From Knoellia sp. Soil729 (GTDB lineage: Bacteria > Actinomycetota > Actinomycetes > Actinomycetales > Dermatophilaceae), in NCBI RefSeq assembly GCF_001427985.1, contig NZ_LMSA01000001.1, forward strand, positions 129,629 to 193,628: 64,000 bases of DNA, written 5' to 3'. The notes below the pieces were generated by a model that was given only the letters and a program-made list of their open reading frames with translations, was not told the DNA's origin and did no database searches. Each line of letters begins with the position of its first letter. Position 1 is the first letter of the stretch. Both the position numbers and the translations under genes were made by a program. Of this stretch, positions 1 to 63,739 are shown one piece after another.

Positions 1-917
1 ACGTGCGAGCCAGCCTCCCTCCCCTCGTCGAGGTGGTCGACCTCGTCGCGGACGCGCTCTCCGCCCTCGCCGAAGGCCGGGCAGACGTCCCGCCCAAGCC
101 GACCGTGCGCACCTCCCCGGGCATGTTCGCCAACGCGATGCCGGCGGCCTACCCTGAGCGAAACCTGTTGGGCTGCAAGTGGATCAGTCTTGTTCCCGAC
201 AACCCCGTGCGAGAGCTACCCACCGCGAGCGGTGTCATGGTCGTCAACGACGGCACGACCGGGGTGCCGCGCGCACTCCTGCCGGCGGCTGAGCTGACCG
301 CTGTGCGGACGGCCGCCGTGACGGGCGCGTGCGTGCGGGCGCTTGCCCCAGCCGACGCCTCGATCTCCTATCTGGGAGCCGGGGTGCAGGCAGCCTCCCA
401 CATCCGCATCCTCGAGGCCCTGGGCCACGCGGAGGTGCACGTGTGGGCCCGCCGGCGAGAGGCGATCGACGCCTTGGTGAGCGAGTCGGCCACGGTGGCA
501 CCCGGCATACGCATCGTTGCGTGCCCGTCGCGGGAGGCCGCGGTGCGTGACAGGGACGTCGTCATCACGGGCCTGTCGATCGGGCTCACCGACATGGCGA
601 TCCCGGCGACGTGGCCGCGCGACGACGCGCTGCTCCTGCCGATCGACTACGCCAGCTCGGTCGGGGCCGACCTCGCCGACAGTGCTGTCCTCGCGGCCGA
701 CGACCCGCAGCAGTTCGCCGCGGTGCGGGCGGTCCGGGGCAAGCTCGACGGCTACCCGGCGCCGACGACCTGGACCGGTCACCTGCTCCACGCGCCGCGC
801 CCCGACGGCCGGCTGGTGATCCAGAACCTCGGCTCCGGGATCACCGACCTTGTCGTCGCCAGTGCCGTCGCGGACCGTGCCGAGGCGTCTGGAACGGGCC
901 TGCTCGTCGACGTCTGA
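1..917 (+). CDS. Ornithine cyclodeaminase / mu-crystallin family protein (5' end cut)
   Basis: The frame is open to the window edge. The first in-frame GTG (position 3) falls where homologues already have 10-15 residues (the edge reads Asp-Val-Arg-Ala-Ser-Leu), so the true start is outside. The visible 304 residues cover nearly the whole family length. From the GTG, a Rossmann dinucleotide-binding loop (GAGVQA, residues 125-130) follows the family's Lys-containing GCKW segment near residue 57. Family members reduce or deaminate amino-acid or imine substrates with NAD(P)H (ornithine cyclodeaminase, alanine dehydrogenase, ketimine reductase). The substrate cannot be assigned from this fragment. 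The next gene starts 18 bp downstream but has its own promoter-like box, so the two need not be one operon. Confidence 0.85.
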   Translation, partial: VRASLPPLVEVVDLVADALSALAEGRADVPPKPTVRTSPGMFANAMPAAYPERNLLGCKWISLVPDNPVRELPTASGVMVVNDGTTGVPRALLPAAELTAVRTAAVTGACVRALAPADASISYLGAGVQAASHIRILEALGHAEVHVWARRREAIDALVSESATVAPGIRIVACPSREAAVRDRDVVITGLSIGLTDMAIPATWPRDDALLLPIDYASSVGADLADSAVLAADDPQQFAAVRAVRGKLDGYPAPTTWTGHLLHAPRPDGRLVIQNLGSGITDLVVASAVADRAEASGTGLLVDV

Positions 918-923
918 GCGACC

Positions 924-929
924 TACGAT
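924..929 (+). promoter_or_regulatory. -10 box of a leaderless promoter (TACGAT)
   Basis: TACGAT is followed by 6 nt and then the GTG start of the tyrosine phosphatase, the spacing expected when transcription begins at the start codon. Inferred from spacing only. Confidence 0.4.
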
Positions 930-935
930 GACGGG

Positions 936-1745
936 GTGAGCGACGTGAGCAAGCAGCCGCCGACCGACGGGCCCCCGCCCCAACGCTGGATCGAGCTGGA
1001 GGGCGTGGTCAACATGCGCGACTCCGGCGGTCTGCCCACCCATGACGGCGGGATGATCCAGCCCCACCGGTTGCTGCGCTCGGACAACCTGCAGGACCTC
1101 TCGGAGACTGACATCCGGCAGTTCGTGGAGGTGCTCGGCGTGAGCGACATCGTCGACCTGCGCAGCGACACCGAGGTGCGCACCGAGGGACCGGGCCCGC
1201 TGTGGCAGGTCGAGTCCCTGACCCACCACCACCACTCGCTGGTCAGCGATGACCGTGAGTTCAACCCCCGCGAGGCCTTGGCCCTGCAGGAGTCCTCCGA
1301 CCGGCCCACGCGCGACGCCGAGTTCTGGACCACGCACTACCTCGGTTACCTGGCGGCCCGCCCCGACTCCATCTCTGCCGCCCTGGAGGTCGTGTCGCGC
1401 AGCAGTGGAGGGACGGTCATCCACTGCGCCGCCGGGAAGGACCGCACCGGCACCGTGGTCGCCCTCGCCCTCGACGCCGCCGGGGTTCCGCACGAGGCCA
1501 TCGTCGAGGACTACGCCCTGAGCGCCGAGCGAATCGAGCGCATCATCGCCCGCCTCCTGCCTCGCGATCTCTACGGCGTGGCGCTGCGCCGTCAGAGCGT
1601 GGACGAGCAGCGACCCCGCCCCGAGACCATGCAGACCATCCTGGCCACCGTGCAGAGCGAGTTCGGCGGGGCGACCGGGTGGCTGCGTGAACAGGGCTGG
1701 AGCAGCGAGGACGTCACCCGGCTGCGCGAGCGGCTCACGTCATGA
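936..1745 (+). CDS. Tyrosine/serine protein phosphatase, Y_phosphatase3 type
   Basis: 269 residues. The catalytic P-loop HCAAGKDRTG (Cys about residue 164) matches the CX5R motif of the bacterial Y_phosphatase3 family, and the N-terminal RDSGGLPTHDGG...LLRSDNL segment is also typical. The enzyme would hydrolyse phosphotyrosine or phosphoserine, or possibly phosphoinositides as MptpB-type members do. It has no signal peptide and is probably cytosolic. GTG 936 is preferred because it lies 6 nt after a TANNNT box. The stop overlaps the ATG of the NUDIX gene (ATGA), indicating translational coupling. The substrate is unknown. Confidence 0.88.
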   Translation: MSDVSKQPPTDGPPPQRWIELEGVVNMRDSGGLPTHDGGMIQPHRLLRSDNLQDLSETDIRQFVEVLGVSDIVDLRSDTEVRTEGPGPLWQVESLTHHHHSLVSDDREFNPREALALQESSDRPTRDAEFWTTHYLGYLAARPDSISAALEVVSRSSGGTVIHCAAGKDRTGTVVALALDAAGVPHEAIVEDYALSAERIERIIARLLPRDLYGVALRRQSVDEQRPRPETMQTILATVQSEFGGATGWLREQGWSSEDVTRLRERLTS

Positions 1746-2317
1746 CGCCTCCGCGCGCTGCACTCCCTGCTCCACGCGGGGACTCGCGCCCGCGCATCCG
1801 TCGGCGCGCCATGAGGGTGCTGCTCGTCGACGGCGCCGACCGGTTGCTCCTCTTCAAGGACAGCGACCCGGGGATCCTGCCCCTGCCGACGTTCTGGATC
1901 ACCCCCGGCGGCGGGGTCGACCCGGGCGAGAGCGACCTCCAGGCCGCCGTGCGCGAGATCGCCGAGGAGACCGGCCTCGTCGTGGCTGAGGGTGACCTCC
2001 TCGGACCACTGGCCGAGCGCGTCGTCGTCCACGGCTACAGCGACGTCGTGACCACGCAGGACGAGCAGTTCTGGTTCGTCAGGTGTGAGGGCTTCGAGGT
2101 CTCGACCGCCGGGCACACCGAGGACGAGCTCGCCACGATGACCGCCCACCACTGGTGGACGCGCGCCGAGCTCGAGGAGACGGCCGAGGACATCTGGCCC
2201 CGTGACCTGCTGCGGGTGTGGGACCAAGTGGGTCCGGGCGACTCCCACACGGGCCCACCGCTGGAGCTCGGCGACGTCGAGGAGTCGACCGTCGCCGTCG
2301 CGCTCAGCTCGCGCTGA
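1742..2317 (+). CDS. NUDIX hydrolase
   Basis: 191 residues with a complete Nudix box: G-x5-E-x7-REIAEETG-L, roughly residues 56-79. This motif binds the divalent metal and catalyses cleavage of nucleoside diphosphates linked to another moiety. The N-terminus is a basic leader (RPRIRRRAMRVLLVDG), so ATG 1811 could be an alternative start giving a conventional 168-residue protein. The ATGA overlap with the phosphatase supports the earlier start. The 3' end overlaps the tail of the convergent nitroreductase gene by 14 bp. The substrate is not predictable. Confidence 0.88.
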   Translation: MTPPRAALPAPRGDSRPRIRRRAMRVLLVDGADRLLLFKDSDPGILPLPTFWITPGGGVDPGESDLQAAVREIAEETGLVVAEGDLLGPLAERVVVHGYSDVVTTQDEQFWFVRCEGFEVSTAGHTEDELATMTAHHWWTRAELEETAEDIWPRDLLRVWDQVGPGDSHTGPPLELGDVEESTVAVALSSR

Positions 2318-2744
2318 ACGGCTCGAGCACGAAGACCGGGATGAGGCGGTCGGTGTTCTGCTGGTACTCGGCGTAGCTCGGGAACGCCTCGACGCAGCGG
2401 GTCCACCAGCCCTCGCGCTCGGCGCCGTCGAGCTCACGCGCCCTGGCCACCCAGCTGCGCGTGCCATCCTGCAGCTCGAGCACCGGGTTCTTGCGCAGGT
2501 TGGCGTACCACTTCGGGTGCTCGGGCGCTCCACCCTTGCTGGCCACCGCGGCATACAGGCCGTCGTGCTCGACCCGCATGAGGGGCACCTTGCGCACGGA
2601 GCCGGTCACGCCGTTCATCGTCAGCATGACCACGGGTCGGCCCTGGATGTCGACGGACTCGGTCGTGCCGGTCTCCTCGATGGTCTCGACCTGCTTGCGC
2701 ACCCAGTCGCTGGGGCTCGGAACATACTCGCCAGTGATCGTCAT
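2304..2744 (-). CDS. Deazaflavin (F420)-dependent nitroreductase family protein
   Basis: 146 residues starting MTITGEYVPS. The sequence GRPVVMLTMNGVTGSVRKVPLMRVEHDGLYAAVASKGG and the later NPVLELQDG are characteristic of the Ddn/DUF385 split-beta-barrel family, which binds cofactor F420 and reduces quinones or nitro-compounds. The open frame runs far upstream, but that part has the composition of an antisense frame; ATG 2744 gives the family length. It lies 35 bp downstream of the thioesterase gene on the same strand, so the two are probably co-transcribed. It overlaps the convergent NUDIX gene by 14 bp. Confidence 0.85.
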   Translation of the reverse strand: MTITGEYVPSPSDWVRKQVETIEETGTTESVDIQGRPVVMLTMNGVTGSVRKVPLMRVEHDGLYAAVASKGGAPEHPKWYANLRKNPVLELQDGTRSWVARARELDGAEREGWWTRCVEAFPSYAEYQQNTDRLIPVFVLEPFSAS

Positions 2745-2779
2745 GCCGTGGACAACACCACCGAGGCCCGAAGTATTCG

Positions 2780-3241
2780 CTACTTCTTCATCTCGCTGAC
2801 GTAGATCGTGATGACGCCCTCGACGACCGTCGTCCCGTCCTCGCGGATCGCCCTGACCCGCACCGGCACATCGCCGCCCTGCTCCCAGTCGGCCGGGTCG
2901 GTGTCGGCCGTGCACAGCAGGTCGGTGGTCGACTTGGCCGTGTAGGCCACCTCCATGCCCTTGGGGATCCAGCGCCGCCCGCGGGGTGTGGTCGCCTCGG
3001 CGAGCAGACCCATCGCGGCCTCGAGACCGTTGCACACGGCGATCGCGTGGACGGTGCCGATGTGGTTCTGGACCGCGCGCCGCTTGCGGACGACGAGCTC
3101 GGCATGGTGGGGGCGCACCTCGCGCACCTGCGGCCGCACGGTCCAGAAGTACGGCGCCTTCTGCGCGAAGAGGAACGAGAACGCCTGCTTGCCCAGGGGC
3201 AGGGAGGTGAGCTGGCGGTAGAGGGCGAAGGTGTCCGGCAT
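2780..3241 (-). CDS. DUF4442 hotdog-fold thioesterase-like protein
   Basis: 153 residues. The segment AVQNHIGTVHAIAVCNGLEAAMGLLAE and the terminal GVITIYVSEMKK match the DUF4442 / YiiD-C type hotdog domain, commonly acyl-CoA thioesterase-like; the Asn/His and Asn-Gly-Glu positions resemble the hotdog active-site region. No signal peptide or membrane segment is present. The start codon lies inside a GTATGCCG octamer. A TAACCT box 6 nt upstream of ATG suggests a leaderless transcript. The substrate is unknown. Confidence 0.78.
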   Translation of the reverse strand: MPDTFALYRQLTSLPLGKQAFSFLFAQKAPYFWTVRPQVREVRPHHAELVVRKRRAVQNHIGTVHAIAVCNGLEAAMGLLAEATTPRGRRWIPKGMEVAYTAKSTTDLLCTADTDPADWEQGGDVPVRVRAIREDGTTVVEGVITIYVSEMKK

Positions 3242-3268
3242 ACGCAGAGGTTACTTCTCGGTATGCCG
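3236..3268. repeat. Inverted pair of the GTATGCCG octamer (CGGCATAC ... GTATGCCG)
   Basis: CGGCATAC (3236-3243) and GTATGCCG (3261-3268) face each other across 17 nt, between the lepA stop and the DUF4442 start. The loop contains the candidate -10 box of the DUF4442 gene (3248-3253). It may act as a weak hairpin terminator for lepA. See the octamer-family entry. Confidence 0.6.
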
Positions 3269-3300
3269 TCCGCTCACCACGCGTGCACCCTCACCACCGT

Positions 3301-5169
<1,869 letters not shown>

Positions 5170-6066: not shown

Positions 6067-6281
6067 GAAGAAATCTCTCTGGTGAGGTCGGTAATTGCCG
6101 TAGAGGGCGGCAGCCGCTGTTCGGGACCGGGAGTGGGGACGCCCTTGCGTGAACCGCGACTGGGTGGTGCTGCGAGCGCGCACGACCTGAGCGCGCACGC
6201 GAGGAGCAAATCTACCAGCGCGCTGGTGGGAAGAGCAAAACGCCGGAACAACCGGGCGTATGCCGGGTGCTCGGCTGCCGC

Positions 6282-7277
6282 TCAGCCATCACCCGACGCC
6301 TTCTCTCGCGTGATGGTCAGGACGGCCCGCTCGACGGCGTAGACGGGGTCGCGGCCGCCGCCCTTGACCTCGAAGTCTGCCGCGGCGACCGCCTGGAGCG
6401 AGCGCGCCAGCGCCTCGGCGGTCCAGCCCTGGAGTGAGCGACGCGCCTTGTCGACCTGCCACGGCGCCATCCCGAGGTCGCGCGCGAGGTCGGCGGAGCG
6501 GCCCCGGCCGGCGGAGCCGACCTTGATGAGTTGGCGGAGCTGCTGGGCCAGGACCGCGACGATCGGCACGGGGTCGACGCCCACGGCGAGGGCGTGGCGC
6601 AGCAGGCGCAGCGCCTCCCCCGCGTCCCCCGCCACGGCAGCGTCGGCGACCTTGAAGCCGGTCGCCTCGACCTTGCCGCCGTGGTAGGTCAGGACGACCT
6701 GCTCGTCGATGGTGCCGGTGGTGTCGGCGATGAGCTGCTGGCAGGCGGAGGCCAGCTCGCGCAGGTCCTTGCCGATGGCGTCGACGAGTGCCTGGACGGC
6801 CTCACCGGTCGCGCGCCGCTTCGCTCGGCGGAACTCGTTCGTCGCGAAGTCGGCCTTGTCGCGGTCGGTCTTGATGGCCGGAGCCTCGATGAGCCGGGCC
6901 CGCGACTTCTTGAGCGTGTCGAGCACCTTCTTGCCCCGGTTGCCACCCTTGTGGGTGACGACGAGGGTCACGTCCTCCGGAGGTGCCGCGAGGTAGGCGA
7001 GCAGGTCCTGCTGGAGCTCGTCGGTGGCCTCGTCGAGGTCGTGGACGACCACCGCCTTGTCACCGCCGAAGAGCGACGGGCTCGAGTGGACCATGAGCTC
7101 GCCCGGCTCGTAGGCGCTCGCGTAGAGCCGGATGACCTCGACGTCGGGGTTGTGCTCCCGAATCGCCTGGACCGTCTCGGCCAGTCCTCGCTCGGCGAGG
7201 ACCTGCTCTGGTCCGGTGATGAGGACGAGGGGCGGGACACGACGCTGCACCTCGACGAGATCACTCACGGCGCTCAC
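6282..7277 (-). CDS. holA: DNA polymerase III subunit delta
   Basis: 331 residues from GTG 7277; a second GTG at 7268 is nearly as good, and ATG 7355 is unlikely because it would run through the dinG terminator. The sequence [52 protein letters not shown] and the C-terminal [11 protein letters not shown] are typical of HolA, the clamp-loader subunit that opens the sliding clamp. In many actinobacteria comEA-comEC lie directly upstream of holA; here a dinG-type helicase gene occupies that side. Confidence 0.93.
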
Positions 7278-7304
7278 TCTGCCACGGCCCACCGACCCTG
7301 CCCC

Positions 7305-7370
7305 CGACTGATTGCCCGTGTGGCCAGTTGCGTCGCTGCGCTCCGAACTGGCCAACCGGGCAATCAGTCG
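7305..7370. terminator. Large hairpin at the dinG stop codon
   Basis: CGACTGATTGCCCG (7305-7318) pairs perfectly with 7357-7370, and a second 9-bp arm TGGCCAGTT (7321-7329) pairs with AACTGGCCA (7346-7354), leaving a 16-nt GC-rich loop. The outer arm includes the dinG stop codon. It probably terminates dinG before holA, though it is longer than most factor-independent terminators and has no T-tract. Confidence 0.65.
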
Positions 7371-9640
7371 AAGCCGAGGGTGGATCCAGCGCCGGCCTGA
7401 AGTCCCAGGCCCTCGAGGCGGGCCGCGATGACCTCGGTCGGCAGCTCGAGCGACTCGCTCAGCTCCGTGACGTCGAGTCCGAGCTCGACGCCGTCCCGCA
7501 GCTCCTCGTCCTCCTGCTCGGTCCAGGCATGGCCCTGGGTGACCGCCGTGCGCGACGACACCGCCGGTGGCGGGGCGGTGGCAACGGGCCGGGTGTCGGT
7601 CGCGTCGACCACACCACTGACCTCGGCGTCGCCCATGGCCGTGCCCCTGACCGCTCCCGTGAGCCCGCGCAACGCCGGGTCGGCGACCTCGAGGGGCGGG
7701 GGCGCCGTCGCGTCGAGGCGTTCGAGGGCGCCCAGCACCATGGCCCTGTCGGTCGTCGGCCAGAACGGAGGCAACGAGCGTTGGAGGAACCCGGCATACC
7801 GGGCGGTCATCATGCGGGAGTCGAGGAACGCGACGACCCCGCGGTCGTCTCCACGACGAATGAGCCGACCGGCACCCTGCGCGAGTCGCAGCGCGGCGTG
7901 CGTCGCGCTGACCGCCATGAAGCCGTTGCCGCCCATGCGTCCGATGGCCTGCGAGCGCGCGGACGCGAGGGGGTCGTCCGGTCGGGGGAAGGGGATGCGG
8001 TCGATGATGACGAGCTGGCAGGACGAGCCCGGGACGTCGACGCCCTGCCAGAGGCTCAGCGTGCCGAAGAGGCAGGTGCGCGGATCGCGGGCGAACTGGC
8101 GCACGAGCGTGGAGATCTGGTCCTCACCCTGGCAGAGGACGGCGATCTCTCCGTCGAGGTCCTTGAGCCGCTCACGCATCTCGTCGGTCGCGGCACGAGC
8201 CGCCCTCATCGACGAGAAGAGCCCGAGGGTGCGGCCGCCGGCGGCGCGCACCAGCGCCTCGATCTCGTCCATGGCTTCGGGAGCGGCACCATCACGTCCT
8301 GGCGCAGGCAGGTGCTTGGCGACGTAGGCGATGCCCTGTTGCGGGTAGTCGAACGGGCTGCCGACGTCGAGGCCGGTCCACTTTGGCGCCCCCTCACCGC
8401 GCAGGCCGATCGTGCCGGCCACCGCGTCGAAGGTGCCACCCAGCTCGAGCGTCGCGGAGGTGAGGACGACCGTGCGGTCCTCGAAGATCCTGTCGCGCAC
8501 GAGCATCGCGACGCTCATCGGCGCCACCCGCAGCACGCTCCCTCGCCGTGGGTCCTTGCTCACCCACACCACGTCGAGCTCGCGCTCCTCGAGGACGCGC
8601 GAGGCGTTCTCGTTGAGCTCGTCGACCGCGGCACGGGCGATCTGCCGGGCCCCGTCGACCTCCTGGCCGGGCGGCGGCTTGAGCTCGGTCTGCACCTGAC
8701 GGGTGGTGTCGCGCAGGCGTGCCAGTGCCAGCCCGAGGTTGTCGGGGATGCCGGTGAGGCGACCCTCGGGGATCTCGTCGAGGACGGACTCGAGGAAGGT
8801 CGCAGCGTCGTCAACGGTCTCGCTCGAGTCGGCCTGCCTCCCTGCTCGTTTGGCCGCGGCCCGGGCCATCGCCGGGGTGACCTCGTCGGTGATCGTCGCC
8901 GTCACGCGGTCGACGAGCTCGTGGGCCTCGTCGATGACGAGCACGTCGTGCTCGGGCAGCATCTGCCGCCCCTCGAAGGCGTCGATCGCCATGAACGAGT
9001 GGTTGGTGACGATGACGTCGACGCCCTTGGCAGCCTCACGCGAGCGCTCGACGAAGCACTCGGCCACCATCGGGCACTTGCTGCCCAGGCACTCGTGAGC
9101 GCTCACCGAGACCTGTCGCCAGGCCCGTTCGGAGACACCGGGCACGAGCTCGTCACGGTCACCGGACTCGGTCTCGTCGGCCCACTCGCGCAGGCGCACG
9201 ACCTCCTTGCCGAGGCGACCGGCCTGCTGGTCGACGTCTCCGACCCCGAACAGGCCCTCCTCGTCGTCCGGGAAGCCCCCCTCGAGCTTGTGCGCGCAGA
9301 GGTAGTTGCGGCGACCCTTGACGATCGCGTAGGTGGGTCGTCGGCCCAGGAGCGGCGCGAGGGAGTCGGCGACCCGGGGCATGTCGCGGTCCACGATCTG
9401 CGCCTGGAGCGCCAGCGTGGCCGTGGCGACGATGGCGGGCTTGCCGGAGTCGATGGCGTGCTGGACCGCGGGGACGAGGTAGGCGAGGGACTTGCCGGTG
9501 CCCGTTCCCGCCTGGACGAGCAGGTGCTCGCCGGTCTCGACGGCATGGGCCACGGCCTTGGCCATGCTCACCTGGCCCGGGCGCTCACTGCCCTTGACAC
9601 CGCTGACCGCTGCAGCGAGGAGGTCGTCGAGGGTCGGCAC
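7364..9640 (-). CDS. dinG: DinG/XPD-family ATP-dependent DNA helicase
   Basis: 758 residues. Walker A AGTGTGKS is at 44-51 and the DEAH box at 237-240. Four cysteines (about 115, 184, 189 and 195) between them are spaced as the iron-sulfur cluster of XPD/DinG helicases. The C-terminal helicase motif VI (GAGRLIRRGDDRG) is present. The enzyme unwinds DNA 5'-3' and acts on R-loops, forks or G-quadruplexes in repair. GTG 9640 is supported by a TAGGCT box 6 nt upstream. The last 70 residues contain an acidic, helical tail (ELRDGVELGLDVTELSESLEL) that looks like an extra DNA- or protein-binding element. Confidence 0.92.
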   Translation of the reverse strand: MPTLDDLLAAAVSGVKGSERPGQVSMAKAVAHAVETGEHLLVQAGTGTGKSLAYLVPAVQHAIDSGKPAIVATATLALQAQIVDRDMPRVADSLAPLLGRRPTYAIVKGRRNYLCAHKLEGGFPDDEEGLFGVGDVDQQAGRLGKEVVRLREWADETESGDRDELVPGVSERAWRQVSVSAHECLGSKCPMVAECFVERSREAAKGVDVIVTNHSFMAIDAFEGRQMLPEHDVLVIDEAHELVDRVTATITDEVTPAMARAAAKRAGRQADSSETVDDAATFLESVLDEIPEGRLTGIPDNLGLALARLRDTTRQVQTELKPPPGQEVDGARQIARAAVDELNENASRVLEERELDVVWVSKDPRRGSVLRVAPMSVAMLVRDRIFEDRTVVLTSATLELGGTFDAVAGTIGLRGEGAPKWTGLDVGSPFDYPQQGIAYVAKHLPAPGRDGAAPEAMDEIEALVRAAGGRTLGLFSSMRAARAATDEMRERLKDLDGEIAVLCQGEDQISTLVRQFARDPRTCLFGTLSLWQGVDVPGSSCQLVIIDRIPFPRPDDPLASARSQAIGRMGGNGFMAVSATHAALRLAQGAGRLIRRGDDRGVVAFLDSRMMTARYAGFLQRSLPPFWPTTDRAMVLGALERLDATAPPPLEVADPALRGLTGAVRGTAMGDAEVSGVVDATDTRPVATAPPPAVSSRTAVTQGHAWTEQEDEELRDGVELGLDVTELSESLELPTEVIAARLEGLGLQAGAGSTLGFD

Positions 9641-9646
9641 CGAGAC

Positions 9647-9652
9647 AGCCTA
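9647..9652 (-). promoter_or_regulatory. -10 box of the leaderless dinG promoter (TAGGCT)
   Basis: Reading leftwards, TAGGCT is followed by 6 nt and the GTG start of the helicase gene. Confidence 0.45.
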
Positions 9653-9731
9653 TGCCGCGGCGGTGACAGCGCCGACGCCCCTTCCACAGGCAAGTGGGTG
9701 CGCCACCCGGGGACCGAGCGGCGCGACCGGA

Positions 9732-9784
9732 GGGAACCTTCGGGCACCGGAGGGAAAGGAACGCTCCGGTCACCCAAGGTTCCC
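9732..9784. repeat. Imperfect intergenic inverted repeat (21-nt arms, 11-nt loop)
   Basis: Arms 9732-9752 and 9764-9784 match at 18 of 21 positions and share GGGAACCTT and ACCGGAG. The word CCGGAGGGAA also occurs twice as a direct repeat just before and within the first arm. It lies between the SDR stop (9830) and the dinG start, both leftward genes. It could be the SDR-operon terminator or a decaying repeat element. Confidence 0.6.
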
Positions 9785-9829
9785 GCATGGGGAGCGAAAG
9801 TTGGGGTCGCGGGGGCGGGACCGCCCGGC

Positions 9830-10656
9830 TCAGACGGCGCCCGGCTTCTGCATGAGGCCCCCGTCGGCCATGATCGTCGTCGCGGTGATGTAGGACGCGG
9901 CGTCGCTCGCGGCGAAGCAGACGACCTTGCCCATCTCCTGCGGGGAGCCGATGTACGACAGCGGGACCGCCGCCGCGAGCGCCCTGGTCTCCTCGGGCGT
10001 GTCGTCGTCGTTGATCGGGGTGTCGATGGCGCCCGGTCCGACGCCGACCATCCTGATCCGGTCGGCGCCGAGCTCGACCCCGGCCGTGCGGGTGAGCATG
10101 CGCATGCCGCCCTTGGAGATGCAGTACGCCAGGTCGCTGGGCATGGGCCAGTCCTCGTGCGTGGAGGTGATGTTGATGATGACGCCGCCGTCGCCCTGCG
10201 TGCGCATCTGGGCGGCGGCGAGCTTGGAGCCGAAGACGGCGCCCTTGAGGTTGATGTTCATGAGGAGGTCGTACTTCTCCTCGGTGAGGGACTCCAGAGT
10301 CTCTCCGAACTCGACGCCGGCGTTGTTGACCATGACGTCGAGACGGCCATAGGTGTCTACGGCGGTGGCGATGAGCTTCTCGAGGTCGGCGACCCTGGAG
10401 ACGTCCGCCTGGCAGCCCACCGCCTCGGCTCCGGACGCCTCGAGGTCCCTGATGATGGCCTCGGTGTCCTCCGGCCTGGACACGTAGTCGATGACGACCT
10501 TGGCGCCCTGGGCGGCCGCCTCGCGCACGATGCCCTCGCCGATGCCGCTGTTGCCGCCCGTGACGACGACGACCTTGCCCTCGAGCGGACGCTGCTGCGC
10601 CGTCGAGGCGGTGGCCGAGGTGGTGGTGGCGGTGTCGCTGTGCTGTCCGGTGGTGC

Positions 10657-10660
<4 letters not shown>
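9830..10660 (-). CDS. SDR-family oxidoreductase, glucose 1-dehydrogenase-like
   Basis: 276 residues from ATG 10660, whose first three bases overlap the upstream gene's stop (ATGA). It has the cofactor loop TGGNSGIGEGI after a 25-residue Ser/Thr-rich N-terminal extension, NNAGVEF, the catalytic Ser in NITSTHEDWP and the Tyr-Lys pair YCISK. The STHEDWPMPSDLAYCISKGG context is like Bacillus-type glucose 1-dehydrogenases. This suggests oxidation of a sugar or polyol with NAD(P)+. Translational coupling to a large glucosidase gene suggests it may oxidise the sugar that enzyme releases, which is an inference. Confidence 0.85.
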
Positions 10661-13377
<2,717 letters not shown>

Positions 13378-17179: not shown

Positions 17180-17186
17180 ACGGAAA

Positions 17187-22207: not shown

Positions 22208-22309
22208 TCTCGCACCCAGCCCTGGCAACGGTTCCCGAGCACGGCGACGGATCCCTTGCTCCGGACCCCCTTTACGGGTGACCCGTCACAGGAGAGGTGG
22301 GTATGCCGG

Positions 22310-52151: not shown

Positions 52152-52168
52152 GACCGGCCGACAGACCA

Positions 52169-52211
52169 TCCGGTATGCCGTCCGCTCGCCGTGGGCGGAC
52201 GGCATACCGGA
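52169..52211. terminator. thyA terminator built from two GTATGCCG octamers
   Basis: Arms 52169-52185 and 52195-52211 are perfect complements (17 bp) around a 9-nt loop. Each arm contains the octamer (GTATGCCG at 52173-52180, CGGCATAC at 52200-52207). It starts 18 bp after the thyA stop. Confidence 0.85.
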
Positions 52212-52338
52212 GCGTCGTGGTTCCGCCCGCAACAGGGGTGTTACTTGTTTTGGGGTTCGTGTAGTTCAACGTCGCCCGAACAACGTCGGAGGACGCCACC
52301 GGTTGGGCGGGCGCCAGCGCCGTGGCCCACACCCCCAA

Positions 52339-54530: not shown

Positions 54531-55153
54531 TGAGCCACGACCACGGTGGGCACTCCCACTCCCCCGGTCCGACCGCCGACGCGAGCGTCCGCTCGGCAAA
54601 GCCCACGGACGCCCCCGCGGTCGGGGTGGTCCAGGCAGCGGTCTGGACCCAGGCGTATGCCGGCCGCCTGCCCGACGATGTCGTCGCCCTCTTCGAGGCA
54701 CCCTCCTTCGCCAAGGCCTGGCGCCAGTCGCTCGAGAACCCACCCGAGGGAGTGCACCGACTGCTGGTCGCGCGCGCCGGTGAGCAGGTCGTCGGCTTCG
54801 CGGCGATCGGCCCGAGCCAGGACCCTGACGCCGGTCAGGCAACGGGTGAGGTGACCGCGATCGGGGTGCACCCCGGAGCCCGTCGCATGGGTCACGGCTC
54901 CCGCCTCCTCAACGCCTGCGTCGACACGTTGCGCGGCGCCGGTGCCGAGGACCTCGCGACCTGGGTGCTGGCCGACGACGAGGCCACCCGTGCCTTCCTC
55001 GTGGCCTCGGGACTCGGACCGGACGGGGCCTTCCGCGACCGGGTCGTCTCCCCCGAGGGCGACACACTGCGAGAGGTGCGCCTCGTCGCCTCCCTCGCCC
55101 CGGACGAGACCCCGTCAGCAGACGCGCCCGAGGAGCCGGAGTCGGTCGAGTGA
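54527..55153 (+). CDS. GNAT acetyltransferase with His-rich N-terminus
   Basis: 208 residues. After a His-rich leader (SHDHGGHSHSPG) that could bind metal, the GNAT fold is clear: [59 protein letters not shown] (acetyl-CoA loop) and TRAFLVASGLGPDG. It ends in an acidic tail. It is coupled to the gene before (ATGA) and to azlC after (GTGA). The substrate is unknown. Confidence 0.88.
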   Translation: MMSHDHGGHSHSPGPTADASVRSAKPTDAPAVGVVQAAVWTQAYAGRLPDDVVALFEAPSFAKAWRQSLENPPEGVHRLLVARAGEQVVGFAAIGPSQDPDAGQATGEVTAIGVHPGARRMGHGSRLLNACVDTLRGAGAEDLATWVLADDEATRAFLVASGLGPDGAFRDRVVSPEGDTLREVRLVASLAPDETPSADAPEEPESVE

Positions 55154-55917
55154 CCGCCTCGGCGGCCGAGCCGAGAGGCGAGGACGTCGCCGAAGGCGAG
55201 CACACGGCATACCTCCCGATTGACGGCGCGAAGCGCAAAGCCGTTCTGCGACAGTCACTTTCGGTCGGCATTGCCACGGGCGCCTATGGCATCAGCTTCG
55301 GCGCGCTGGGGGTCGCGGCCGGGCTAACCACTCTCCAGACGGTGGCCCTGTCGGTCCTGCTCTTCAGCGGAGGGTCCCAGTTCGCCGTCGTGGGCATCCT
55401 GGGCGCCGGTGGGACCGGCTCCGCCGCCGTCGCCACCTCGACGCTGCTCGGGCTGCGCAACGGCCTCTATGCGCTGCAGACCTCGCGCATCCTGCAGGTG
55501 CACGGACTTCGCCGGCTGCTCGCCGCGCACGTCACCATCGACGAGTCCACGGCCGTCAGCGTCGGACAGGACGACCGTCGCGCCGGACGCCTGGGCTTCT
55601 GGGTCACCGGACTGACCGTGTTCGCGTTCTGGAACGCCATGACCCTCGTCGGCGCGCTCGTGGGAAACGCCCTCGGCGACCCGCAGCGGTGGGGGCTCGA
55701 CGCGGCCGCGGCGGCGGCGTTCACCGCCCTGCTCTGGCCCAGGCTGCGCAGCCGCGACGCCGCCGCCACCATGGTGCTGGCCATCGCCGTCGCCCTCCTG
55801 ACCTCGCCCCTGCTGCCCGTCGGCGTCCCCGTCATCCTCACCGTTCTCGCCGCTGTCGTCGTCGGCCTGAGCGGCGGAGGACGCCACGAGAGCCCCCTGC
55901 CCCAGGACGTGCCATGA
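55150..55917 (+). CDS. azlC: AzlC-family branched-chain amino-acid exporter subunit
   Basis: 255 residues. After a 30-residue cytosolic leader, the AzlC core follows: LSVGIATGAYGISFGALGVAAGLTTLQTVALSVLLFSGGSQFAVVGILGAGG, with the GGSQF motif and several further membrane helices. With AzlD it forms an exporter for branched-chain amino acids (BrnFE in Corynebacterium). The GTG start overlaps the GNAT stop. Confidence 0.9.
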   Translation: MTASAAEPRGEDVAEGEHTAYLPIDGAKRKAVLRQSLSVGIATGAYGISFGALGVAAGLTTLQTVALSVLLFSGGSQFAVVGILGAGGTGSAAVATSTLLGLRNGLYALQTSRILQVHGLRRLLAAHVTIDESTAVSVGQDDRRAGRLGFWVTGLTVFAFWNAMTLVGALVGNALGDPQRWGLDAAAAAAFTALLWPRLRSRDAAATMVLAIAVALLTSPLLPVGVPVILTVLAAVVVGLSGGGRHESPLPQDVP

Positions 55918-56682: not shown

Positions 56683-57426
56683 TCAGATGCCGAGGTAGTG
56701 CTCGAGTCCGACCGTGAGTCCCGGGTGCTCGTGCACCGTGCGGACGGCAGCCACGACACCGGGCATGAACGACACCCGGTCGAACGAGTCGTGGCGGATC
56801 GTCAGCATCTCGCCCGTCTGGCCGAAGAGGACCTCCTGGTGCGCAACGAGACCCCGCAGTCGAACGGAGTGCACGGGTATGCCGTGTGCCCGCGCGCCGC
56901 GTGCACCGCCCGGATCGCTCGTGGTGGCGTCGGGGACGTCGGCGAGCCCGGCCCGGTCGCGGGCGGCGCCGATGAGCTCGGCGGTGCGGGCGGCCGTCCC
57001 CGAGGGAGCGTCGACCTTGTCGGGGTGGTGCAGCTCGATGACCTCGACCGACTCGTAGAACTGCGCCGCCTTGCTCGCGAACGCCATCATGAGGACCGCG
57101 CCGATGGCGAAGTTCGGCGCGATGAGGACGCCCACCTCCGGCTGCTGCTCGAGCCGGGCCGTGAGGTCGGCGAGCCCGTCCTCCCCCCAACCGGTCGTCC
57201 CGACGACGACGTGGACACCCTGGTCCACACAGTGGGCGACGTTGGCGCCGGACGCCTCCGGCACGGAGAACTCGACGACGACGTCCGCCCCTGCGAGGTC
57301 ACCGAGGTCGTCGCCCACGTCGAAACGGCCGACGAGCTCGAGGTCGTCGGCGGCCTCCACCGCTCGGCACACCTCCGACCCCATACGACCCGACGCACCG
57401 ATGACCGAGACCTTGGTGACACTCAC
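56683..57426 (-). CDS. dapB: 4-hydroxy-tetrahydrodipicolinate reductase
   Basis: 247 residues from GTG 57426. The nucleotide-binding loop IGASGRMG is at 9-16, and the catalytic motif ELHHPDKVDAPSGTA is intact. It makes tetrahydrodipicolinate, the step after DapA. TAGGGT lies 6 nt before the GTG. In many actinobacteria a pepR-type peptidase and pnp are the upstream neighbours; here a small ORF, a glycosyltransferase and an MFS gene separate it from pnp. Confidence 0.96.
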   Translation of the reverse strand: MSVTKVSVIGASGRMGSEVCRAVEAADDLELVGRFDVGDDLGDLAGADVVVEFSVPEASGANVAHCVDQGVHVVVGTTGWGEDGLADLTARLEQQPEVGVLIAPNFAIGAVLMMAFASKAAQFYESVEVIELHHPDKVDAPSGTAARTAELIGAARDRAGLADVPDATTSDPGGARGARAHGIPVHSVRLRGLVAHQEVLFGQTGEMLTIRHDSFDRVSFMPGVVAAVRTVHEHPGLTVGLEHYLGI

Positions 57427-57721: not shown

Positions 57722-57725
57722 CCCG

Positions 57726-58649: not shown

Positions 58650-58801
58650 TTCTCACGTCCCTTCGAGCCGGCCCGATGCTCATCATGACGTACCCCGCAG
58701 GCGACAACCCGGCATACCGGCCATGACCGCTCGGGGAAGGCTGGCTCAGACGGCCCAGAAGATCTTCGCGCCTTCGACGCTCATTCGACGTTCCTGACCA
58801 G

Positions 58802-58807: not shown

Positions 58808-58814
58808 CACGCCG

Positions 58815-60113
58815 GTGGAGGGCACAGGGGTGGGGTCGCACGCGCGCGCGAGCATGCCCTCGTACGCCCAGGTCTTCCGCACCGGCGGCTTCGTCCCGGC
58901 CCTCCTGGCGCTCAGCATCTCCACCTGGGGTGACTTCATCGCCCGCGTCGCCGTGGCGTTCGTGGTGCGCGAGCAGACGGGTTCGGACCTGGCCATGGCT
59001 GCGACCTTTGCGGCCAGCCTGCTCCCGAGCATCGTCGGGCGCAGCCTGCTCAGCCCGTTTGCCGACCGGATCCCGTACAAGCACGTCCTCGTGGGGTCGG
59101 ACGTCGTCCGGGGGCTGTTCGTGCTGGCGATCATCGCAGCGGTCGGGCAGCAGAGCCCCGTTCTCGTCCTGCTGGGGTTGCTGTTCGCCCTCGAGCTCTT
59201 CGGAGGACCGGCTGGAGCCTCCCACCAGATCCTGCTGACGGACCTGTTCCCGGACCGTCGGGCGTTCCTGCGTGCCCGCGGACTCTCCACCCTCGCCGAC
59301 CAGCTCAACCAGGCCATCGGCCTCGCCGTGGGTGGGGTCATCGTGACCGCACTCTCGGCGCTCGGCGCACTGGTGGTGGACCTGCTCACCTTCGCCGTGT
59401 CCGCCGTGCTCTTCCTCGTCGCGGTCAGGTCCCGGGCCGTCGACGGCATACCGAGCCCCGGCATCGTCGGCTTCTTCACGGACATCCGCGAGGGGGCTCG
59501 CTACCTGGCGCGACACCGCGTGCTCGTGTCGCTCCTCACGCTCAGCCTCATCGCCATGTTGGGCGTCGTCGCCCCCGAGGCAGTCGCGATCCCCTATGTC
59601 CTCGACCATGACTTCCCGGCCTGGCTCGGCGGGCTCCTCATGGCCTCGCCGGTCCTCGGGGCCGTGTGCGGCGTCATCGTCGTGGGTCGGTGGGAGCCGG
59701 AGGTGGCGGGCGCCAGGATGCTCGTCATGGCACTGCTCATGCCGGTGCCCCTGATATGCGCAGCACTCGTGCCGCCGACGCTCGGATGGCTGCCGCTCGT
59801 CTGGCTGATGTGGTTCGCCAGCGGCGTCCTGCAGGCCTTCCTGCTCCCGCTTCAGGCGACCTTCGCCCTGGTCACAGCACCTCAGATGCGCGGGCGCGTG
59901 ATCGGGCTCGCCGGTGCCGGGTCCATGACGTCGTCGGCGGTGGGCTTCCTGCTCGCCGGCTGGCTCTCCGAGGAGCTCGGCCCCCGGACGTCGGGAGCCG
60001 TGTGCGGGATGCTCTGCCTCGGCGGGATGGCCCTCCTGGCGGCGGCCTGGCCCAAGCGGTCACTCAGGAAGGCCGTGGACGAGGCCTTCAACGGGTCACC
60101 CGCCGCGCGCTGA
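58815..60113 (+). CDS. MFS transporter
   Basis: 432 residues with about 12 membrane segments: GGFVPALLALSISTWGDFIARVAVAFVV, RSLLSPFADRIPYKHVLVGSDVVRGLF (motif A-like), GPAGASHQILLTDLFPDRRAFLRARGLSTLADQLNQAIG. It belongs to the EntS/MFS_3-like exporter group, substrate unknown. A GTG start is chosen from the TAGTGT box. It is followed by a strong octamer-containing terminator and then the convergent pnp. Confidence 0.88.
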   Translation: MEGTGVGSHARASMPSYAQVFRTGGFVPALLALSISTWGDFIARVAVAFVVREQTGSDLAMAATFAASLLPSIVGRSLLSPFADRIPYKHVLVGSDVVRGLFVLAIIAAVGQQSPVLVLLGLLFALELFGGPAGASHQILLTDLFPDRRAFLRARGLSTLADQLNQAIGLAVGGVIVTALSALGALVVDLLTFAVSAVLFLVAVRSRAVDGIPSPGIVGFFTDIREGARYLARHRVLVSLLTLSLIAMLGVVAPEAVAIPYVLDHDFPAWLGGLLMASPVLGAVCGVIVVGRWEPEVAGARMLVMALLMPVPLICAALVPPTLGWLPLVWLMWFASGVLQAFLLPLQATFALVTAPQMRGRVIGLAGAGSMTSSAVGFLLAGWLSEELGPRTSGAVCGMLCLGGMALLAAAWPKRSLRKAVDEAFNGSPAAR

Positions 60114-60134
60114 CCCCGAGGCGGCACCAAGGCC

Positions 60135-60170
60135 GACGGGCCGGCATACCCGAAGGTATGCCGGCCCGTC
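60135..60170. terminator. Bidirectional terminator built from two GTATGCCG octamers
   Basis: A perfect 16-bp stem (60135-60150 with 60155-60170) capped by a CGAA tetraloop; the octamers are CGGCATAC (60142-60149) and GTATGCCG (60156-60163). It lies between the stops of the MFS gene and pnp. Confidence 0.9.
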
Positions 60171-60192
60171 GCCGTACGTGCGTGACGTCAGG

Positions 60193-62604
60193 TCACTCCT
60201 GGACGGAGGACTCTGCCGCCTCGGAGCGCTGACCGCGTCCACGGCCACCACGACGACGGCTGCGCTGACGGCGCTCGCCACTCTCGTCGGAGGAGTCGTG
60301 CGACTCGGAGGACTCGGACGCGTCGTCACCCTCGGCGGCGTCGTCGGTGGCCGGAGCGTCGCTCGCGGGGGCGTCGTGCCCCGCAGCGTCGTCGGCGGCC
60401 GGGGCCGGGGCCTCGGAGTCGCCGTCGGCCTGGACGGCAGCGAGCGAGAGCTTGCCGCGCGGGTCGATCTCCTTGAGCTCGACCTGGACCTTCTGGCCCA
60501 CGGCGAGCACGTCCTCGACGGCGTCGATGCGCTTGCCACCGACGAGCTTGCGCACCTCGGAGATGTGGAGCAGGCCGTCCTTGCCGGGCAGCAGGGAGAT
60601 GAACGCACCGAAGGTCGTCGTCTTGACGACGGTCCCCAGGAAGCGCTCGCCGATCTCGGGCATCTGCGGGTTCGCGATGGCGTTGATCGCCGCGCGAGCC
60701 GCCTCGGCCGAGGGACCGTCGGTGGCACCGATGTAGATGGTGCCGTCGTCCTCGATGGAGATCTGGGCGCCGGTGTCGTCCTGGATCTGGTTGATCATCT
60801 TGCCCTTCGGGCCGATGACCTCGCCGATCTTGTCGACGGGGACGGTCACCGAGATGACTCGAGGAGCGAAGGGGCTCATCTCGTCGGGCACGTCGATGGC
60901 CTCGTTCATGACGTCGAGGATGTGCAGACGGGCCTCACGAGCCTGGGTCAGCGCGCCACCGAGGACCTCGGCGGGGATGCCGTCGAGCTTGGTGTCGAGC
61001 TGGATGGCGGTGATGAACTCGCGCGTGCCGGCGACCTTGAAGTCCATGTCACCGAACGCGTCCTCCGCGCCGAGGATGTCGGTGAGCGCCGCGTACTGCG
61101 TCTCACCGTTGACCTCTGCGGAGACGAGCCCCATCGCGATGCCCGCGACCGGCGCGCGCAGCGGCACACCGGCGTTGAGGAGCGACAGGGTCGAGGCGCA
61201 GACGGAGCCCATGGACGTCGAGCCGTTGGAGCCGAGGGCCTCGGACACCTGGCGGATCGCGTAGGGGAACTCCTCGCGGGTCGGGAGGACCGGCATGAGC
61301 GCACGCTCGGCGAGCGCTCCGTGGCCGATCTCGCGACGCTTCGGCGAACCCACGCGACCGGTCTCACCGGTGGAGTAGGGCGGGAAGTTGTAGTTGTGCA
61401 TGTAGCGCTTGCGCGTGACCGGTGACAGCGTGTCCAGCTGCTGCTCCATGCGGAGCATGTTGAGCGTCGTGACACCCATGATCTGGGTCTCGCCACGCTC
61501 GAAGATCGCCGAGCCGTGGACGCGCGGCAGGACCTCGACCTCGGCGCTGAGCGCGCGGATGTCGGCGAGTCCACGGCCGTCGATGCGGACCTTGTCGGTG
61601 AGGATGCGCTCACGGATGAGCTTCTTCTGCACGGCGCGGTAGGCGGCGGACAGCTCCTTCTCGCGACCCTCGAAGTCGGCCGCGAGGGCCTGCTTCATGG
61701 AGTCCTTGATCTCGTCGAGACGGTCCTCGCGCTCCTGCTTGCCCGCGATCTGCAGGGCGGCAGCGGCGTCGTCGGAGACCTTGGCCTCGACGGCGGAGTA
61801 CGCGTCGTCCTCGTAGTCGAGGAAGATCGGGAACTCCTGGATCGGCTTGGCAGCCTTGGAGGCGAGCTCGGCCTGCGCGTCGCACAGCGCCTTGATGAAC
61901 TTCTTGGAGGCCTCGAGGCCCTCGGCGACGATCTCCTCGGTGGGAGCCGTCTTGCCCTCGTTCTTGACGAGGTCCCAGGTGAACTCGGTGGACTCGGCCT
62001 CGACCATCATGATGGCGACGTCGTCACCAGCCACGCGACCGGCGACGACCATGTCGAAGGTGGAGCGCTCGATGTCGGAGAACTGCGGGAACGCGACCCA
62101 CTGGCCGTCGATGAGCGACAGGCGCGTCGCACCGATCGGACCGGAGAACGGCAGGCCCGAGATCTGCGTCGACGCGGACGCCGCGTTGATCGCGAGGACG
62201 TCGTACTGAGCGTCCGGGTTGAGGGCGAGCACCGAGATGACGACCTGGACCTCGTTGCGCAGACCCTTTGTGAAGGTCGGTCGCAGGGGGCGGTCGATGA
62301 GACGGCAGGTGAGGATCGCCTCGGTGGAGGGGCGGCCCTCGCGACGGAAGAACGAACCGGGGATCTTGCCCGCGGCATACATGCGCTCTTCGACGTCAAC
62401 GGTCAGCGGGAAGAAGTCGAAGCCCTCACGCGGGTGCTTGCCGGCGGTGGTGGTGGAGAGGAGCATCGTGTCCTCGTCCAGGTAGGCGGCGACGGCGCCG
62501 CCGGCCTGCTTGGCCAGGCGTCCGGTCTCGAACCGGACCGTGCGGGTGCCGAACGAGCCGTTGTCGATGGTGGCTTCGGCGAAGGTGATCTCAGGACCCT
62601 CCAT
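60193..62604 (-). CDS. pnp: Polyribonucleotide nucleotidyltransferase
   Basis: 803 residues from ATG 62604, with AAAGGAGGA 5 nt upstream. Two RNase PH domains ([46 protein letters not shown] near the N-terminus; [32 protein letters not shown] near residue 520) flank a helical domain; KH and S1 domains follow ([45 protein letters not shown]). The 90-residue tail is acidic, then Arg/Gly-rich ([16 protein letters not shown]), probably RNA-binding. It phosphorolyses RNA 3'-5'. rpsO lies 159 bp upstream. Confidence 0.97.
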
Positions 62605-62718
62605 TGGGTCCTCCTTTTCTTGAGTGTCAACGAACCGCGTGCATCCTCGTTGTGCACGGGCGTGATTCTGTGGTTCCTGCTGGTCAGCTCGGTGTCGAGC
62701 TGCCCAACACATCCGAAA

Positions 62719-62746
62719 GAGCGGCCCTCCAAGTGGAGAGCCGCTC
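62719..62746 (-). terminator. Hairpin between rpsO and pnp
   Basis: A GAGCGGC...CTCC stem with one C/A mismatch and an AAGT loop. In other bacteria the rpsO-pnp intercistronic hairpin is an RNase III site as well as an attenuator; here only the structure is seen. Confidence 0.6.
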
Positions 62747-62763
62747 CGACGGAAATCGTGGGG

Positions 62764-63033
62764 TCAGCGTCGCAGGCCGAGGCGCTTGATCAGCGAGCGG
62801 TAGCGCTCGATGTCGATGTCCTCCAGGTAGCGAAGCAGTCGGCGGCGACGGCCGACGAGAAGGAGCAGACCACGACGGCTGTGGTGGTCGTGCTTGTGCT
62901 GACGGGAGTGCTCGGTGAGGTCGAGGATGCGCTGGGTGAGAAGCGCGATCTGGACCTCGGGCGAGCCGGTGTCACCCTCGACCGTCGCGTATTCGGTCAT
63001 GATCTTCTGCTTGACGTCTGCGTCCAAAGGCAT
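62764..63033 (-). CDS. rpsO: 30S ribosomal protein S15
   Basis: 89 residues from ATG 63033: [89 protein letters not shown] complete and typical S15. It is a 16S rRNA binding protein that often autoregulates its mRNA. AAGGAG lies about 12 nt upstream. pnp follows. Confidence 0.98.
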
Positions 63034-63154
63034 GGGCGAGGAGACTCCTTCTGAGGTGGTTGCGCGGCGCTTCCGGGCTGGTTCACCGGGGCACTCTGAA
63101 TCCGCGGCCGGTTGTGACGGCGAGAGCAAGATTAGCAGCGCGCGGGGTTGCTCC

Positions 63155-63739
63155 CTAATTGCCCAGGACAGCCGGTATGCCGGCCAGTCGCCCGACGATG
63201 ACCGCGAGCGCCTCGTCGATCTCGGCTGCGGCGGCTCGCGCCGCCTTCCTGCCCCGTCGGTACGGATCGGCCACGTCCCACGAGAGGCTGTCGGGACGCG
63301 CAAGCGCGAGGGCACCCTCCAGCGCCGCCCGCCCGCTCGCCGAGGTGGGAACCCGTTCGAGGGCATCGGTGAGCTGCTGCAACCCGAAGACCTTGGGTGC
63401 GTGCTCGGGCCATGAGGTGGCGATGCGCATGCGGTGCGCGTACTCCATCGTGACCACGACGTCGACGTCCGCGAGGATCTGCGCGCTGACCGAACGGCTG
63501 ACGTGCCCGAGGTGGTCGGCGCCACGCTCGCGCAGCCGTGCTCCCATCTCGGGGTCCATCTCACGTCCCGGGAACCCGGGCACACCCGCGCTGGAGACGC
63601 GCAGTGCCGCTTCTGGGGGCGGTGGCGCGCCGAGGAGCTGAACGGCCCTGCGCTCGGCGTAGGGAGAGCGCGAGATGTTGGCCGTGCACACGAAGAGGAC
63701 GTGCAGCGGTGGATGGGAACGCACCGCTTCGGCTCTCAC
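63155..63739 (-). CDS. Low-molecular-weight protein-tyrosine phosphatase
   Basis: 194 residues. The catalytic loop VCTANISRS has Cys18 and Arg24, and the general acid Asp is in [10 protein letters not shown]. The [16 protein letters not shown] segment is the family's second signature. It dephosphorylates tyrosine kinases or cell-envelope sugar transferases in relatives. GTG 63739 is 6 nt after a TAGCCT box. It is divergent from the next gene. Confidence 0.9.

Follow-up and report, generated by a model that had tools for sequence, protein, structure and literature searches.

A highly over-represented octamer in Knoellia sp. Soil729, a candidate DNA-uptake sequence with dialects among related actinobacteria

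The octamer and its copies in the window

We analyzed a 64 kb stretch of contig 1 of Knoellia sp. Soil729 (the window), part of a genome of 3,605,744 bases in 8 contigs, and the 8-letter word GTATGCCG that recurs throughout it, whose candidate role as a DNA-uptake sequence (DUS) is the subject of this report. The window holds 41 exact copies, 18 on the plus strand and 23 on the minus strand, the outermost at 503-510 and 63175-63182; the preliminary description of this DNA had the number and the outer coordinates right. All copies listed here were identified by exact match, and the hairpin arms by folding as well.

503-510, minus strand, octamer copy
2549-2556, minus strand, octamer copy
3236-3243, minus strand, copy forming the left arm of a weak hairpin downstream of lepA
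3261-3268, plus strand, copy forming the right arm of the weak hairpin downstream of lepA
4939-4946, minus strand, octamer copy
6258-6265, plus strand, octamer copy
7792-7799, minus strand, octamer copy
11896-11903, plus strand, octamer copy
12939-12946, minus strand, octamer copy
13478-13485, plus strand, octamer copy
15214-15221, minus strand, octamer copy
17174-17181, minus strand, octamer copy
17226-17233, plus strand, octamer copy
19117-19124, minus strand, octamer copy
19288-19295, plus strand, octamer copy
22301-22308, plus strand, octamer copy
22450-22457, minus strand, octamer copy
28729-28736, minus strand, octamer copy
29235-29242, plus strand, octamer copy
29582-29589, minus strand, octamer copy
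29939-29946, plus strand, octamer copy
32317-32324, plus strand, octamer copy
34356-34363, minus strand, octamer copy
37295-37302, plus strand, octamer copy
40225-40232, minus strand, octamer copy
42967-42974, plus strand, octamer copy
43512-43519, minus strand, octamer copy
47222-47229, minus strand, octamer copy
47796-47803, plus strand, octamer copy
50624-50631, minus strand, octamer copy
52173-52180, plus strand, copy forming a left hairpin arm, 22 nt past the stop of the thymidylate synthase gene
52200-52207, minus strand, copy forming the right arm of the thymidylate synthase hairpin
54655-54662, plus strand, octamer copy
55205-55212, minus strand, octamer copy
56877-56884, plus strand, octamer copy
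58710-58717, minus strand, octamer copy
59444-59451, minus strand, octamer copy
60142-60149, minus strand, copy forming the left arm of a hairpin between two convergent predicted genes
60156-60163, plus strand, copy forming the right arm of that hairpin
62373-62380, minus strand, octamer copy
63175-63182, plus strand, octamer copy

In 100 dinucleotide shuffles of the window the word occurs 0.62 times on average and 4 times at most. It has the highest z-score of all 8-mers in the window and again in a 464 kb genome sample (~13 percent of the total) made up of the window and another 20 stretches of 20 kb each, where 260 copies are seen and 11.7 are expected from a third-order model. The high rank that the preliminary description anticipated is thereby borne out as far as this sample reaches. 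Results on near matches, flanks, spacing, reading frames and close pairs refer to this sample. The 24 words that differ from GTATGCCG by one mismatch sum to 297 occurrences against 288.5 expected, so the excess is confined to the exact octamer, and the sequence flanking the copies shows weak preferences and poor conservation. The whole genome carries 2,138 copies, 1,055 forward and 1,083 reverse, a strand balance that had been claimed from the window; the reversed word, used as a control, occurs 89 times (38 and 51). The genome-wide feature is real beyond reasonable doubt.

Apart from close pairs, the copies are spaced more regularly than random. Gaps of 1.6-3.2 kb number 78 (55.6 expected), those of 3.2-6.4 kb 19 (28.1 expected) and those above 6.4 kb 5 (4.4 expected). 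The strand counts are homogeneous over the 21 stretches of the sample (heterogeneity chi2 5.3, 20 degrees of freedom), and the correlation of orientation with GC skew is 0.05. The balance per stretch is tighter than chance, perhaps on account of inverted pairs.

A word that occurs genome-wide, at fairly even spacing and with exact-match specificity, could be the site of a chromosome-maintenance protein and be kept by selection, in the manner of Chi, of FtsK-orienting polar sequences (KOPS), of architecture-imparting sequences (AIMS) or of nucleoid-protein sites. We consider this unlikely. Oriented chromosome words are skewed by replication direction, and the replichore strand skew typical of Chi, KOPS and AIMS was not found for GTATGCCG in the 21 stretches, every one of which is balanced. 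This absence of strand polarity argues against words of these types, but a nucleoid-protein site without orientation would be compatible with it. Such a site would also leave unexplained three observations described below, namely the dialects within one family, the scarcity in inserts and the inverted pairs at gene ends.

Independence from codon use

Coding DNA was delimited by third-position GC in a first gene call, and a second gene call was also used. The coding stretches contain 191 copies compared with 13.6 after pooled synonymous shuffling, and 202 compared with 11.4 under the second call, an excess of about 14 to 18 times over synonymous-codon shuffles. The octamer lies above expectation in each of the six coding frames. 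The preliminary description was correct that the word is used in several frames and between genes; the frames are used unequally, with Tyr-Ala commonest in the sense orientation and Thr/Ala/Pro-Ala-Tyr in the antisense. Within sense-strand copies lie 77 of the 296 TAT codons, which bears out the earlier remark that the word breaks the local codon bias. The single-base variant GTACGCCG is depleted in the Knoellia sp. Soil729 genome (32 occurrences, 55.7 expected), as if Tyr-Ala sites had been converted.

A codon-pair or dipeptide habit of the family would account for the prominence of the Tyr-Ala and X-Ala-Tyr frames, and in several genomes some of the GTACGCCG background is due to it. As the origin of GTATGCCG it has a negligible probability. 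The octamer far exceeds its synonymous shuffles, a point on which the preliminary description had wanted assurance; all six frames are raised, and non-coding DNA, with 0.87 to 0.93 copies per kb, is richer in the octamer than coding DNA (~0.5 per kb). Contradicted for GTATGCCG, the habit may still underlie weak signals, GTACGCCG in genome G083 being one.

Inverted pairs at gene ends

Neighbouring copies no more than 40 nt apart are inverted in 15 of 16 cases (nine plus-minus, six minus-plus and one minus-minus). Within 60 nt there are 17 inverted pairs among the 260 copies, and 11 of these 17 follow a predicted stop by no more than 80 nt, a distance within which 24.8 percent of non-coding bases fall. 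Such pairs form hairpins, in many cases close to gene ends. Two of the window hairpins fold far better than their shuffles, the one at 52160-52225 with -45.3 kcal/mol (z -6.1) and the one at 60128-60185 with -41.5 kcal/mol (z -6.7). The pair at 3236-3268 after lepA is weaker (-22.7 kcal/mol, z -1.9), and 5 of 200 shuffles are equally good. No T run follows any of the three, so they are terminator-like structures at gene ends, not classic intrinsic terminators. Of the three terminator stems originally described, the pairing at 52169-52211 and 60135-60170 stands as strong, that at 3236-3268 is weak, and the term terminator needs correction.

Hairpins close to gene ends would be expected of a dispersed terminator, or of a repeat like the repetitive extragenic palindromic (REP) elements, that spread by copying and left single octamers as remnants. 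The word CGAAGGGG of the g27 and g35 relatives, which is much denser between genes than within them, could be read in the same way. For GTATGCCG, inverted pairs within 60 nt are few relative to the number of copies; most copies are single and lie within genes, with weakly conserved flanks and no remnants of a larger repeat. A spreading repeat of this kind is accordingly highly improbable.

Distribution and dialects among relatives

The word was counted in 186 genomes of the family (Intrasporangiaceae in NCBI). Genomes with at least 300 copies and 2.5 times the reversed-word control are called octamer-rich, a cut-off chosen after the family counts were seen; the control itself is probably inflated where copies overlap, as in G013 with two copies 7 bases apart. 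All nine Knoellia genomes carry between 1,971 and 3,277 copies. Of the 186 family genomes, 110 are rich (range 322 to 4,724), 65 poor and 11 intermediate, the rich ones belonging to 31 of the 53 genera; three genera mix rich and poor genomes, the poor ones being G016, G083 and G113. In the rest of the phylum none of 392 sampled genomes is rich (396 were drawn, and the table was read by eye). The largest count outside the family is 386 against a control of 176 (G235), and the highest ratio noticed is 161 against 30 (G459). Sharing of individual sites was compared for a handful of positions in two alignments: one is shared and four are unshared with K. sinensis, and one is shared and three are unshared with G007, numbers too small to support a conclusion.

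Other family members are rich in other words. The genus names attached here to relatives' genomes (Janibacter, Marihabitans, Humibacillus, Ornithinibacter) are presumptive, and thresholds for the other words were fixed after their counts had been seen. CGAAGGGGG occurs 797 to 1,939 times in all 16 g27 (Janibacter) and all three g35 (Marihabitans) genomes, with controls of 11 to 34, and at most 80 times in the other 167 family genomes. GGATGCCG reaches 2,099 to 4,480 copies in G025 and G026 (Humibacillus), G042 to G045 (Ornithinibacter) and G178. Six genera, with 10 genomes, carry GTACGCCG at 1,125 to 4,185 copies; one of the 10, G083, is doubtful: it has 1,463 copies but gives only 36 against 15.2 in the codon test, yet it was counted as marked. 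GAATGCCG, found 64 times in 95 kb of G055, was not counted family-wide. GTACGCCG, GGATGCCG and GAATGCCG are single-base variants of GTATGCCG, and CGAAGGGGG is unrelated, with no common core.

GTACGCCG, GGATGCCG and GAATGCCG also exceed synonymous shuffles in their own hosts: 118 against 23.1 in G178, 82 against 15.4 in G089, 29 against 6.9 in G023 and 50 against 3.9 in G055, where GTATGCCG is raised as well (14 against 2.3). CGAAGGGG was observed 43 times against 6.2 in G061 and 51 times against 8.5 in G092. In the samples of G178, G089, G023, G061 and G092, GTATGCCG is not above its synonymous shuffles. Copies of CGAAGGGG pair as hairpins and have a density of 1.04 and 3.74 per kb between genes compared with 0.43 and 0.70 within them, so a terminator role may weigh more in g27 and g35. 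Both GGATGCCG and GTATGCCG are above threshold in G042, G044 and G045.

Four words counted family-wide mark 143 of the 186 genomes and leave 43 unmarked. In this four-word table the intermediate genomes, which are excluded from the rich/poor tables, are included, and for the three words other than GTATGCCG genomes with possible enrichment were entered; the tables were transcribed by hand. Samples of G153, G019, G016 and G113 contained no convincing word. GGATGCCG is moderately raised in G153 and G158 of g46 (1,210 and 1,336 copies, controls 280 and 310), possibly as a decaying dialect.

Three further candidates, GTGTACCAG (L143), GTGGTTGTCC (L188) and AGTAGGTGCGG (L065), were dropped as dialects, their copies being clustered local repeats. 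The clusters lie at 14176-21174 of L143 with a spacing of ~105 bp, at 16053-16551 of L188 in alternating inverted copies, and at 3422-19660 of L065 with spacings of 24 and 59 bp. Such clusters mimic over-represented words in small samples.

Competence genes and the Tad operon

The genome of Knoellia sp. Soil729 encodes ComEA next to a 792-residue ComEC with a beta-lactamase-like domain. ComEC scores above the Pfam cut-off, both proteins score below the NCBIfam cut-offs, and the match to ComF is weak. The two genes are on another contig (L038), in a 20 kb stretch that also contains leuS. In many actinobacteria comEC and comEA adjoin holA. Upstream of holA in the window, at 6282-10726, lie genes for a DinG-like helicase and a short-chain dehydrogenase, and with this helicase as the holA neighbour ComEA and ComEC are ruled out within the window. 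ComEC was found in 180 of the 186 family genomes, octamer-rich or not, and does not discriminate between them. PilM (PF11104) was found in five of 186 genomes and not in that of Knoellia sp. Soil729; type IVa pili are therefore not the rule in the family, and we rejected them as the uptake partner.

Three Tad-type (tight adherence) ATPase loci were found in the genome. Among named genomes scanned for the Tad ATPase, Knoellia sinensis has the best match (95 percent). The third has the gene order tadA-tadB-tadC-flp-tadE-tadE-tadG-like, which matches the tad clusters of Micrococcus luteus needed for transformation, gene order alone being compared. Pfam supports its T2SSE, T2SSF, TadE and Tad domains and gives no match for the small Flp-like protein, of which the G007 copy was examined. 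The reading frames of ComEA, ComEC and the Tad operon are open, and the competence and pilus genes that the preliminary description proposed to look for are thus present.

TadA of the third locus, scored as present at E no greater than 1e-60, occurs in 169 of 186 genomes, a count in which some matches may be to paralogues or fragments. E1, the first TadE-like pilin of the locus, occurs in 165. The two disagree in ten genomes. E1 is present without TadA in G076, G100 and G117, and TadA without E1 in G002, G003, G035, G043, G121, G174 and G178; G181 is without both, the absence of E1 being deduced. One of the four words is carried by 139 of the 169 genomes with TadA and by 4 of the 17 without (P about 1e-6). 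Among genomes at least 90 percent complete the figures are 123 of 151 and 2 of 12. The marked genomes without TadA are G092, G117 and two incomplete genomes, G100 and G181. For GTATGCCG and E1, 105 rich and 51 poor genomes have the pilin, and 5 rich and 14 poor genomes lack it (P 8e-4).

Inserts in the Tad operon

In several relatives the operon is interrupted. An insert of 8.2 to 14 kb splits tadA in G008, G163 and G172 and tadC in G149 and G173, the two parts of each split gene sharing a few residues where they are broken. The tadC of G184 ends near residue 287, with the pilins 10.6 kb further on; in G083 the pilin genes are ~39 kb from tadA, and in G178 the pilins are lost. The insert loci are L201, L204, L205, L206, L207 and L208 (in G149, G008, G184, G163, G172 and G173). 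Large serine recombinases are encoded in the inserts of G149, G163 and G184, a phage capsid also in that of G149, and an IS110 transposase, a helicase and a methyltransferase in that of G008. The reading frames tested in the G172 and G173 inserts gave no mobile-element match. A phage-satellite-like identity for all inserts was discarded; it fits G149 alone, which combines the serine recombinase with the capsid.

The inserts of four octamer-rich hosts (G149, G008, G172 and G173) contain 2 octamers in 44.2 kb, where 23.6 would be expected from the host average (P 1.6e-8); those of G149 and G008 alone contain 1 where ~14.3 would be expected. Foreign DNA that lacks the self mark would account for this scarcity, and the inserts may be elements that profit from switching transformation off. 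They seem to use a transformation gene as an integration site.

Scarcity in the four inserts would also be expected of a DNA modification target (methylation or phosphorothioation) enriched as a self mark, and an exact, non-palindromic 8-mer would suit a modification enzyme. Genomes as a rule avoid modification and restriction sites or are neutral towards them, whereas this word is enriched ~20-fold; one word common to 31 genera, together with single-base dialects, would require an enzyme inherited vertically in each. We regard a modification target as quite improbable. The broken operons of relatives could instead suggest a former uptake sequence that is decaying after loss of competence. This is very improbable for Knoellia sp. 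Soil729, in which the ComEA, ComEC and Tad genes are open and one-mismatch words, the expected products of decay, are not in excess.

A candidate DNA-uptake sequence

An uptake-like element agrees with the density, strand symmetry and codon independence of the word, with its dialects and its inverted pairs close to gene ends, with its scarcity in inserts and with the presence of a transformation apparatus. The interpretation first offered in the preliminary description is thus supported by most of the genomic hallmarks tested, with the near-match excess missing. With good confidence, we propose as the best explanation that GTATGCCG serves as DNA-uptake sequence in a Knoellia that is capable of natural transformation and takes up DNA through a Tad-type competence pilus; the uptake and its receptor are predictions. 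It is also fairly likely that the family represents an independently evolved DUS system in Actinomycetota that has at least five dialects (GTATGCCG, three single-base variants and an unrelated word), is recognized by a Tad pilus in place of a type IVa pilus, and is opposed by word-poor mobile elements that insert into the pilus genes.

The genome-wide word and its dialects, the small number of copies in four inserts and the homologous genes are observed; from them we infer the following course. A surface receptor, part of the Tad-type competence pilus or working with it, would attach to free DNA by way of the octamer. The bound DNA would be drawn in by the pilus, ComEA and ComEC would pass one strand into the cell, and recombination would fix the incoming DNA. 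Fragments bearing the word would enter more often, and through this uptake bias (molecular drive) the word would accumulate on both strands, wherever protein sequence and gene ends tolerate it. Drift of the receptor to another word would give rise to a lineage with another dialect.

Several points weigh against this interpretation, in addition to the breadth of the TadA match noted above. The excess of near matches expected of DUS and of uptake signal sequences (USS) is lacking for GTATGCCG, although this is a secondary and not a defining hallmark; in PMC3630211, one-mismatch words of kingDUS rise by 21 percent. The association tests treat genomes as independent, and at the genus level, for GTATGCCG alone, P = 0.034. 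Thirty of the 169 genomes with TadA, including all 12 of g46, carry none of the four words. Conversely, the Knoellia genomes G002 and G003 are octamer-rich without E1 and have weaker TadA matches (5.5e-70 and 2.0e-108), G092 is CGAAGGGGG-rich without TadA or E1, and G117 is octamer-rich with E1 and no TadA match. These exceptions may be recent losses. When the minor pilins (TadE-like and TadG-like) and Flp of 45 loci, not all of which yielded every gene, were sorted by dialect in search of the receptor, no evident dialect signature was seen by eye among the sequences listed. Mobile genes were recognized in two of the four octamer-poor inserts (G149 and G008).

If the proposal is true, this would be a third, unrelated case of uptake sequences, in Gram-positive bacteria and with dialects, and self-marking of DNA would evolve repeatedly. 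It would provide an independent replicate in which to weigh uptake bias as a by-product against a barrier to foreign DNA, and it would point to 31 genera as places to look for natural transformation. The mixed-dialect genomes G044 and G045 (GGATGCCG and GTATGCCG) and G055 (GAATGCCG and GTATGCCG) could show a switch of dialect under way.

Comparison with known uptake systems

To our knowledge, uptake sequences are known only from two Gram-negative families, the Neisseriaceae and the Pasteurellaceae. A literature search covering few subscription journals and no bioRxiv preprints gave, among the matches listed, no title on uptake sequences in actinobacteria. Uptake in Neisseria uses a type IVa pilus, with ComP as the receptor; the candidate here is a Tad pilus, in a family in which PilM is rare.

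According to PMC3630211, the Neisseriaceae DUS comprises eight dialects with a common core, forms inverted pairs and is recognized by ComP. The dialect picture is mirrored by the family of GTATGCCG; however, CGAAGGGGG does not have the core common to the others. The CTG core of the Neisseria DUS is absent from GTATGCCG, and the phylum and the word differ. GTATGCCG followed by TC contains ATGCCGTC, eight letters in common with the extended Neisseria motif aaatGCCGTCTGAAa (PMC1852404). This match is probably a coincidence because the CTG core is missing.

The Haemophilus influenzae USS, as given in PMC1852404, has 1,471 copies (737 and 734 per strand), and its close pairs are plus-minus in 50 cases and minus-plus in 25. 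The GTATGCCG copies resemble it in strand balance and in the preponderance of plus-minus over minus-plus pairs. The word, phylum and machinery differ, and the A/T-rich extended motif of H. influenzae contrasts with the weak flank preferences of GTATGCCG. We do not suggest that GTATGCCG is akin to the systems of Neisseria or the Pasteurellaceae.

A further likeness is to Flp/Tad-dependent natural transformation in M. luteus, which needs two tad clusters and comEC (PMC4322843). In the main text of that paper the term 'uptake sequence' occurs 0 times. Like M. luteus, Knoellia sp. Soil729 is an actinobacterium that combines ComEA and ComEC with tad loci encoding TadE-like and TadG-like minor pilins.

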